From: an uncultured Rickettsiella sp.
GTDB taxonomy: Bacteria; Pseudomonadota; Gammaproteobacteria; Diplorickettsiales; Diplorickettsiaceae
Reading direction: 5' to 3'
DNA: 64,000 nt
Assembly (NCBI GenBank): GCA_947058615.1
Contig: CAMSHF010000001.1
Coordinates: 186,001-250,000 of the forward strand
Each line of letters starts with the position of its first letter. Position 1 is the first letter of the stretch. Below are positions 20,807-26,290 of this stretch, piece by piece. The translations under genes were made by a program, and so were the position numbers. Under the pieces are notes generated by a model. The model saw only the letters and a list, made by a program, of their open reading frames with translations. It was not told the origin of the DNA and did no database searches.

Positions 20807-21156
20807 TGTTTATCTAAATCACACAAAAAAACTTGATTATTATACAAAGACCGATTTGTAACGGCTATGACGATATCTATATCCGGTAATCTATACTGAT
20901 TAAGCCTAAAACTTTCCCTTATGAGACGCTTAAACCGGTTTCTAGATACCGCACTTGGAATTACCCTTTTCGCTATAGCTAAACCTAACCTAGCATAACC
21001 TAAGCCATTAAGCCTAGTATAGAGAACTAAGCCCCCCTGTTTCTGTTTATTCCCTTGTCGAAAAGTTCGTTGAAAGTCTTCCGAACAATGAAGTCGTAAT
21101 AACTTAATGAAACCTTGGTTAGTCTTTAACAAAGAAGAAAAAACCGTGTTAAGCAC
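20770..21156 (-). CDS. rnpA: ribonuclease P protein component
   Basis: Protein subunit of RNase P, which matures tRNA 5' ends. Seen: the [17 protein letters not shown]-terminal block, the RNR-motif region [16 protein letters not shown], and the terminal VV-type strand. Length of 128 aa includes about 18 extra residues before the usual beginning. The start is a GTG that overlaps the last codons of rpmH; no start codon lies nearer to the conserved region, since the Leu codons there are TTA. This overlap indicates translational coupling. The RNA partner rnpB is not in the window. Confidence 0.93.
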
Positions 21157-21283
21157 TTAAGCGCATACGACCTTTAGCACGACGTCGCTTAAGGATTAAA
21201 CGGCCCTTTTTCGTAGCCATTCTCGCTCTAAATCCGTGTGTTCTCTTACGCTTAAGATTACTGGGTTGATATGTTCTTTTCAT
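21149..21283 (-). CDS. rpmH: 50S ribosomal protein L34
   Basis: A 44-residue basic protein reading [14 protein letters not shown] at the N-terminus, then THGFRARM, then a KRRRAKGR segment and a final LSA. This is the canonical L34 sequence. It is the first gene of the rpmH–rnpA–yidD–yidC–mnmE block and its stop region overlaps the GTG start of rnpA. The gene-free origin region lies upstream, with dnaA divergent beyond it. Confidence 0.98.
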
Positions 21284-21540
21284 AATTATAATACTACCCC
21301 TAAGGGTTATTTACTTAGTAGAGATGACGTATCTTAGGTGACCCTATTTAGATTGTCAATTTCATTCGGTCGTAAGCAAAAAAGGCACCTGGTTATAAAA
21401 TAGTCTAATCTTGCTCAAAAACGAAGTGGCTAGATATAAAGATAGCGTTCTTAGATGAATTTATCATGGAAAAATTCATAAAAGTTGATAGGGGGGCTTC
21501 AGATCGTTTTAATTCTGTTTTATGGCGTAAATGGTAAAAT

Positions 21541-21596
21541 TCTAAATAAATATCATTTATTTAGATTAAAATTTATCTTTAAAGATAAATTTTAAT
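21541..21596. repeat. two adjoining AT-rich palindromes in the origin region
   Basis: The first is an 11-bp inverted repeat (TCTAAATAAAT/ATTTATTTAGA) with a three-base centre at 21541–21565. The second is a perfect, loop-free 32-bp palindrome at 21565–21596, with arms ATTAAAATTTATCTTT and its exact complement. They share one base. Together they could extrude a double cruciform. They may be part of the DNA-unwinding element or a convergent-promoter structure; neither is proven. Confidence 0.8.
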
Positions 21597-21763
21597 AACA
21601 ATTAACTGAATTAAAGAAATGAAATTTTTTGTAAGTTCAGTTTATTACTAATAATAATAATTTAAAAGATAAATGTAGTAATATAGGAAGGATATTTCTG
21701 TTATTAACTAGATTTTTATTAAATTTTTCATAATCTTAAGTGAAAAAATAAATAAAGAAAGAC

Positions 21764-21772
21764 TGTGAATAA
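21764..21772 (-). promoter_or_regulatory. DnaA box
   Basis: TGTGAATAA on the plus strand, which is TTATTCACA on the minus strand and matches the consensus TTATNCACA exactly. It lies about 550 bp upstream of dnaA inside the rpmH–dnaA intergenic region, consistent with either origin function or dnaA autoregulation. Confidence 0.65.
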
Positions 21773-22323
21773 GTGTTAATCTTTTAACCTAGGTTTCAAA
21801 TTAAAGCTTATAACATTTTTTTTCAATACAAATACACACAGGTTATTGATAATTACTAACAGGCATTAATTTGATCTATCTAAGGTTTAAATATTAGTTA
21901 ACAAATTTTTTATGTTGATTTCTTACGGCTTATAAATACATAGCTTAATCCTAATCTGCTAAATTTTATCTCTTATGCCGTTTTTAATATCGTATACGAG
22001 GTAAATTCTGCTAAGGATTGAGTTTGTTCAAAAAAAGTATATTAGTAGTTGAATTAGGAAGTTTTATAAAATTTAATCGTTTAGATAACTCTCAACTTTT
22101 ATACCAATAATATAAATTTTTTTACTTTTTAAAGTAAATTAAGGGGTTTAAAAGTAATAATTTTAAAAAACCTAAAAATTTTCTATGTATATAAAAATTG
22201 CATTAGAAATTACTTGCAAATAATTTCTATCTTTTTTTAATGGTTTAGGCTAGATAAGCTATAAGAATTATGATATGAACTTAAGTCGGTTAACCGTTTA
22301 TTTTATGTGGTAGAGGAATTATT

Positions 22324-23676
22324 GTGGCAACCGCTTTAGTAACATTCATTTGGCAAAAATGTTTAGATCGACTTCAAGATCATATATCACTCCAAGATTT
22401 TAATACTTGGATACGCCCATTGCAGGCTGAACAAAAAGAAGAACAGCTTATTCTATGGGCACCTAATCAATTTGTTTTACACTGTGTAAACGAAAGATTT
22501 TTAGTTCATATTAATCAGATCTTGACTCAATTAGATGAAGCACCCCCGGAAGTTATACTAAGAGTGGGTAGTCGCGATAATCAAACATCTCAAATTTCCC
22601 CTATATTAAGAAATACTCAAGTTTCTAAGGGAAAATCTAAGATTATTAAGGTTTCAGCAACACATATAAATTCAAATTTTACATTTATTAATTTTGTTGA
22701 AGGTAAATCTAACCAATTAGCACGAGCTGCTTCTGTGCAAGTTGCAGAAAATCCTGGAGGGGCCTACAACCCTTTATTACTTTATGGTGGAGTTGGATTA
22801 GGAAAAACTCATTTAATGCATGCAATTGGTAACGCTATTTTACTTAAAAATCCGCATGCCAAGGTGTTATATCTACATTCAGAACGTTTTGTTTCGGATA
22901 TGATCAGAGCTTTGCAAACAAATACAATTAATGATTTTAAAACTTATTATCGCTCATTAGATGCATTATTAATTGATGATATTCAATTTTTTGCAGGAAA
23001 AGATCGTTCTCAAGAGGAGTTTTTTCACACGTTTAATACCTTATTAGAAAGCCAACAACAAATTGTATTAACATGTGATCGATATCCAAAAGAAATGTCA
23101 GGTGTGGAAGAACGTTTAAAATCACGGCTAGGTTGGGGACTGACAGTGGCTATTGAACCACCTGACCTTGAAACACGAGTTGCTATTTTGATTAGCAAGG
23201 CTGAACAAACCAAAATAAGTTTACCACAGGAGGTAGCTTTTTTTATTGCGAAACGAATTCATTCTAATGTGAGAGAACTTGAAGGTGTATTGAAAAGAGT
23301 AGTGGCTTATGCACAATTTACAGGATTACAAATCACACTTGAGTTGGTACGCGAAGCTATTAAAGATGTGCTCGCCTTACAAGATAAATTAGTCACAGTC
23401 GATAATATTATTAAAACAGTTGCAGAGTATTACAAAATTAAAGTTTCGGATTTACTTTCTAAGCGTCGCACATCTTCTTTGGCGCGTGCGCGTCAAATTG
23501 CTATGGCTCTTGCAAAAGAATTAACAAACCACAGTTTACCTGAACTAGGTCGAGCTTTTGGTGGGCGCGATCATACCACTGTATTGCACGCATTCCGAAA
23601 AATTCAAGAATTAAAAAAAACAAATACTGGCGTTGCTGAAGATTTTATAAATTTATTGCGTACTTTATCGAGTTGA
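22324..23676 (+). CDS. dnaA: chromosomal replication initiator protein DnaA
   Basis: AAA+ initiator that binds DnaA boxes and melts oriC. Seen: domain I ([24 protein letters not shown]), a linker, the Walker [11 protein letters not shown] and Walker [10 protein letters not shown] of domain III, and domain IV with the DNA-binding signature [11 protein letters not shown]. Length of 450 aa is typical. The start is GTG at 22324 with a GAGG about seven bases before. dnaN follows 11 bp downstream. The origin-like region precedes it. Confidence 0.98.
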
Positions 23677-26252: not shown

Positions 26253-26290
26253 TCAAACCATAAGGTTTCACATGAAACCTTATGGTTTGA
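26253..26290 (-). terminator. 18-bp perfect hairpin between convergent genes
   Basis: TCAAACCATAAGGTTTCA and its exact complement flank a two-base centre. The structure begins four bases after the SMR gene stop and ends 32 bp before the trhO stop. Read on the minus strand it is followed by GTTTTATT, so it best serves as the trhO terminator; on the plus strand the tail is A-rich, which is weaker. It could also block read-through in both directions. Confidence 0.75.

Follow-up and report, generated by a model that had tools for sequence, protein, structure and literature searches.

The window analyzed here, a 64,000-nt stretch of a contig from an uncultured Rickettsiella sp., carries rpmH (21149-21283, minus strand) and dnaA (22324-23676, plus strand) in divergent orientation with a 1,040-bp gap between them, as an earlier sequence-only reading of the same DNA had correctly named them. 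Within this gap, ATTAAAATTTATCTTTAAAGATAAATTTTAAT is perfectly self-complementary over 32 bp, with arms of 16 bases and a loop of 0, in full agreement with what that reading had described. An exact inverted repeat, TCTAAATAAAT-ATC-ATTTATTTAGA, lies at its left side; the repeat itself was confirmed, but the two elements do not merely abut, as had been claimed, since they have one base in common (Table 1). Their arrangement can be described from the segment 21555-21580, the first 11 bases of which are copied in inverted form on the left across the 3-nt loop, while the last 16 bases are copied in inverted form on the right. The palindrome is present in a single genomic copy and in none of the viral contigs, and a multi-copy repeat was therefore rejected.

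Table 1. Features of the rpmH-dnaA gap, in window coordinates
Feature	Position	Strand	Basis or remark
Probable rpmH promoter, TTGACA-17-TAAGAT	21331-21359	-	Kept in most of the genus; points away from the palindrome
Probable DNA-unwinding element (DUE): the 150 bp with the lowest stability in the gap, palindrome included	21535-21685	.	Nearest-neighbour stability
Inverted repeat, 11-bp arms, 3-nt loop	21541-21565	.	Base 21565 shared with the palindrome
32-bp perfect loop-free palindrome ATTAAAATTTATCTTTAAAGATAAATTTTAAT	21565-21596	.	Longest loop-free palindrome in 1.315 Mb; absent in 9 congeners
Inverted core ATCT-N4-AGAT, centre of the palindrome	21575-21586	.	Common to the genus; shuffle-tested
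Left portion of the genus/family-conserved block: A/T repeat TTATTACTAATAATAATAATTT	21642-21663	+	Alignments
Putative DnaA-trio-like TAG-TAA-TAT	21676-21684	+	Followed after 14 bp by DnaA-box position 1; criteria of PMC8287927
DnaA-box position 1, degenerate (TTAATAACA)	21699-21707	-	Aligned place is a perfect TTATCCACA in G014 and G015
DnaA box TTATTCACA (second position)	21764-21772	-	Exact match to TTATNCACA
DnaA-box position 3, degenerate (AAATACACA)	21830-21838	+	Exact TTATACACA or TTATGCACA in G003, G005, G006, and G009

The cumulative GC skew reached its minimum at ~21.3 kb, at the gap and not elsewhere, when the skew check proposed in the sequence-only reading was run. In the complete chromosome of the congener G007, sampled at 20 points, the sign of the skew changes at dnaA and about halfway round (positive from dnaA to ~0.76 Mb, negative from ~0.84 Mb to the end). 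Because of this minimum and the flip at dnaA in G007, the rpmH-dnaA gap is, by the usual compositional criterion, very probably the replication origin of the genus, and its earlier designation as a probable origin is further supported by a conserved block that holds DnaA-box positions and an AT-rich element. The locus resembles dnaA-linked bacterial chromosomal oriC of the rpmH-dnaA type in gene order, in the change of skew sign at the locus, in its intergenic DnaA-box positions (one exact TTATTCACA and two orthologous degenerate positions), and in an extremely A/T-rich, easily melted unwinding stretch beside the boxes. It differs from such origins in that, among the three DnaA-box positions of the genus, two are degenerate here and that a perfect palindrome overlaps the DUE edge.

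Alignment of the gap across 10 genomes of the genus resolved, from left to right, the region of the rpmH promoter, a spacer that aligns poorly, a block conserved from ~21640, and a conserved stretch preceding dnaA. The conserved block lies just to the right of the palindrome and is recognizable in sister genera as well, where the order TATTATTATAAT..., AGATAG...GATGATAA, TCTGTGGATAA is retained, with TCTGTGGATAA including the perfect box TTATCCACA in G014 and G015. The palindrome lies within the left part of the least stable stretch, than which only 0.002% of windows genome-wide are less stable. The quality of the DnaA boxes is distributed differently among species: the middle box is exact here, with the first and third degenerate, and several congeners combine an exact third box with a mismatch in the middle box. 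The basal unwinding system described in PMC8287927 consists of a DnaA box, a spacer, and DnaA-trios, in that order, with the box bearing at most two mismatches to TTATCCACA and lying within 16 bp of at least three NAN trios. The same order is found here, with the trio-like TAG-TAA-TAT, a 14-bp spacer, and a DnaA-box position; by inspection, however, the box TTAATAACA deviates from TTATCCACA at three of nine bases, one more than the strict definition permits, although this box is perfect in G014 and G015.

Classical E. coli-type 13-mers (GATCTnTTnTTTT) were rejected as an explanation, given that none was found near the palindrome and that the single match within two mismatches in the gap region overlapped the rpmH start. 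For the IHF consensus WATCAANNNNTTR, only candidate matches, each with one mismatch, were found, and IHF-like genes are present in the genome with scores below the NCBIfam cut-offs. Four genes of the HU/IHF family were located in this genome, G000 (C8:36641-36907, C4:106172-106441, C7:17513-17782, and C2:37724-38005), of which the C2 gene is divergent. Sequestration through SeqA and GATC sites was also rejected, with no SeqA match in the genome and two GATC in the gap.

A palindrome of this kind is not expected from base composition. Among 3,000 first-order Markov sequences modelled on the gap (1,040 bp, 23.8% GC), loop-free arms did not exceed 13, a length reached once, and an arm of 16 never occurred; five third-order Markov genomes likewise gave loop-free arms of at most 13. 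No longer loop-free palindrome was found in 1,315,332 of the 1,366,247 genome bases (96%), where the runner-up had an arm of 13. Elsewhere in the genome there are inverted repeats whose arms measure 14-18 and whose loops are small, and long inverted repeats as such are therefore not rare.

The sequence-only reading had argued that loop-free palindromes this long are unstable and rarely kept, so that selection would be plausible. The argument is weak, and our data do not support the view that such a palindrome is too unstable to persist without selection. The lower size limit of SbcCD in vitro has been placed at palindromes of 20-36 bp, a limit that, according to the authors, ensures that natural genomic palindromes escape targeting (PMC4245961), and the 32-bp palindrome falls inside this range. 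Moreover, SbcD (TIGR00619) was matched in none of 16 family genomes (this one and 15 others), compared with 13 of 14 control genomes. Given this size range and the lack of a detected SbcD, keeping the palindrome needs no special explanation, and in such a family palindromes may accumulate more freely.

In the gap alignment, the long palindrome was absent from all nine congeners, which are at best 90% identical in DNA at rpmH and align poorly in the spacer; absence from close relatives is one of the outcomes that the sequence-only reading had itself listed as refuting its view. The left arm of the 11-bp repeat also had no counterpart in this alignment, which is loose at that place. What the genus has in common is the 4+4-bp core: of eight representative genomes, six (among them this one) carry ATCT-N4-AGAT exactly, and all eight have it with at most one mismatch, whereas dinucleotide shuffles of the spacers gave an expectation of 0.09, none of 2,000 reaching either observed count. 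When all 4N4N4 words were considered, none of 300 shuffle sets contained one that came to six. The match in G002 sits at a shifted place, and in G008 the right half of the core differs from that of its near sister G007. Shared ancestry partly accounts for the sharing of the core, though the spacer around it can barely be aligned. At positions beyond the core, congener bases paired at 37 of 90, compared with 28-41 for partners slid by up to four bases, and there is thus no sign that long arms were kept; the arms are neither retained nor compensated among these relatives, contrary to what a conserved functional palindrome would show. Exact cores were lacking in the sister genera (G010, G011, and G013-G015), with one-mismatch forms in G010, G014, and G015, and the other gammaproteobacterial rpmH-dnaA gaps that were scanned contained no exact ATCT-N4-AGAT and had best arms of 11 or less. 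The suggestion that the long palindrome is under selection was therefore not upheld by the relatives, and its proposed function finds no support in this comparison, although a lineage-specific role may exist.

The reading that we consider probable, with considerable room for doubt, combines an ordinary dnaA-linked oriC, a small core shared by the genus, and a species-specific perfection of that core by template switching. The palindrome sits at the left end, distal to the DnaA boxes, of the probable unwinding region of a normal origin, a place where the genus carries the short inverted motif ATCT-N4-AGAT, probably the ancestral state. Most likely, a nascent 3' end in this species snapped back during replication and copied the left arm, an event that the single-stranded state of the DUE at every initiation would favour, so that the short inverted repeat became a perfect palindrome of 32 bp; the neighbouring 11-bp repeat was perhaps made in the same manner. 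In replication, the stretch would then act chiefly as A/T DNA that opens readily rather than by virtue of its symmetry, and any contact of the core with a protein at the DUE edge is a guess on our part.

Consistent with such an event, the 14 bases to the left of the core scored above their own shuffles in comparison with seven of eight congeners (z up to 3.9), whereas the 14 bases to the right scored at or below theirs (z at most 0.2), the z-scores referring to 14-nt flanks in non-independent genomes. Template switching would be expected to leave such a footprint, with a left arm that is orthologous and a right arm that is new and repeats it exactly in inverted form, and this asymmetry, seen in short flanks of related genomes, is suggestive of it. 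Perfect hairpins are known to arise by template switching, which can also correct imperfect ones (PMC8794818, PMC7202029). The likeness extends to a short shared motif at the orthologous place (within one mismatch in eight of eight genomes, shifted in G002), a long perfect version in one lineage, and, as the short flanks suggest, one arm that resembles the relatives and another that does not; the present case differs from theirs in that a single event is deduced from the comparison of one strain of the species. Two points weigh against this history. The palindrome may be old and lost in other lineages, considering that the congeners are not very close (at most 90% DNA identity at rpmH, with a poorly aligned spacer), and selection could have acted on it recently, in view of 16-bp arms without one mismatch.

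Alternatively, ATCT-N4-AGAT could be a candidate site for a dimeric protein or ATP-DnaA at the DUE-distal edge, with the long palindrome as an accidental extension, which we consider doubtful. The core is common within a hardly alignable spacer and keeps a roughly constant distance to the conserved block in most congeners. Low-affinity sites for ATP-DnaA resemble AGATCT, and ATCTnTT resembles the E. coli DUE 13-mers. Against such a site stand the lack of an exact core in the five sister-genus genomes, the altered right half in G008 relative to G007, the displaced match in G002, and the absence of genome-wide enrichment (30 occurrences versus 20-35 simulated), which also led us to reject a genome-wide regulator site. 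For tests of protein binding, the 4+4 core common to the genus is the most rewarding part.

It is unlikely that the palindrome itself was selected for origin opening, by extruding, under negative supercoiling, a cruciform (or a pair of hairpins) at the edge of the DUE that would absorb supercoils or define, for the loading of DnaA/helicase, how far the opening extends to the left. The palindrome does lie in a stretch that ranks among the least stable of the genome, its predicted DNA hairpins (-12.2 kcal/mol over 72 nt) are markedly stronger than those of congeners (-0.5 to -5.6 kcal/mol), and the longest loop-free palindrome of the genome (96% checked) is situated exactly at the origin. Yet no congener possesses it despite the common conserved origin block, its arms outside the core pair no better than slid controls, and the look of a maintained palindrome in this genus is displayed by the nearby parS-type site described below. 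An even less probable extension holds that the genus has a previously undescribed symmetric oriC element, ATCT-N4-AGAT at the DUE-distal edge, which would have been extended here into a palindrome with a cruciform-based opening or boundary function.

Inverted repeats often terminate transcription, but it is highly improbable that the two repeats form hairpins in a transcript, whether of a terminator or of a small RNA, as neither an Rfam match nor a terminator-like site was found, G-C pairs are almost lacking in the stems, and the two neighbouring genes point away from each other, the likely rpmH promoter standing on the left and the conserved stretch just before dnaA. Equally improbable is an assembly or amplification artefact, which a draft of 14 contigs and the inverted chimaeras that amplification can create might suggest, since the palindrome lies deep inside a 337-kb contig, its 32 bp are easily spanned by reads, and its flanks are collinear with those of congeners.

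Perfection of the core by template switching, if correct, suggests that even a conspicuous perfect palindrome at an origin can be recent and confined to one lineage, the result of copying errors in DNA opened in each cell cycle, and cautions that symmetry alone is no proof of function. The comparison also provides a map of the origin across the family.

The genus has another origin-proximal inverted repeat, which resembles the parS of ParABS. The sequence GTTTCACGTGAAAC, which we take to be the parS-type core and ParB site, occurs in congeners: G007 and G008 have it ~3.9 kb to the right of the dnaA start, and in G001 and G006 it shares a contig with dnaA and lies near that gene. At 3.9 kb to the right of its own dnaA start, the species studied here has GTTTCACATGAAAC within a longer inverted repeat. 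At the parS-type site the flanking arms keep their symmetry, and the differences between G007 and G005 are compensated, a pattern that the 32-bp palindrome does not exhibit among species. In our window, the repeat spans 38 nt (26253-26290; arms of 18, loop of 2) and is centred on GTTTCACATGAAAC, a one-base variant of GTTTCACGTGAAAC; it directly follows a gene for an SMR-family transporter and may double as a terminator. A second parS-like site, GTTTCACGTGGAAC, was observed ~2.9-3.0 kb to the right of dnaA in G003, G005, and G002 (L231, L232, and L235), probably within recF.
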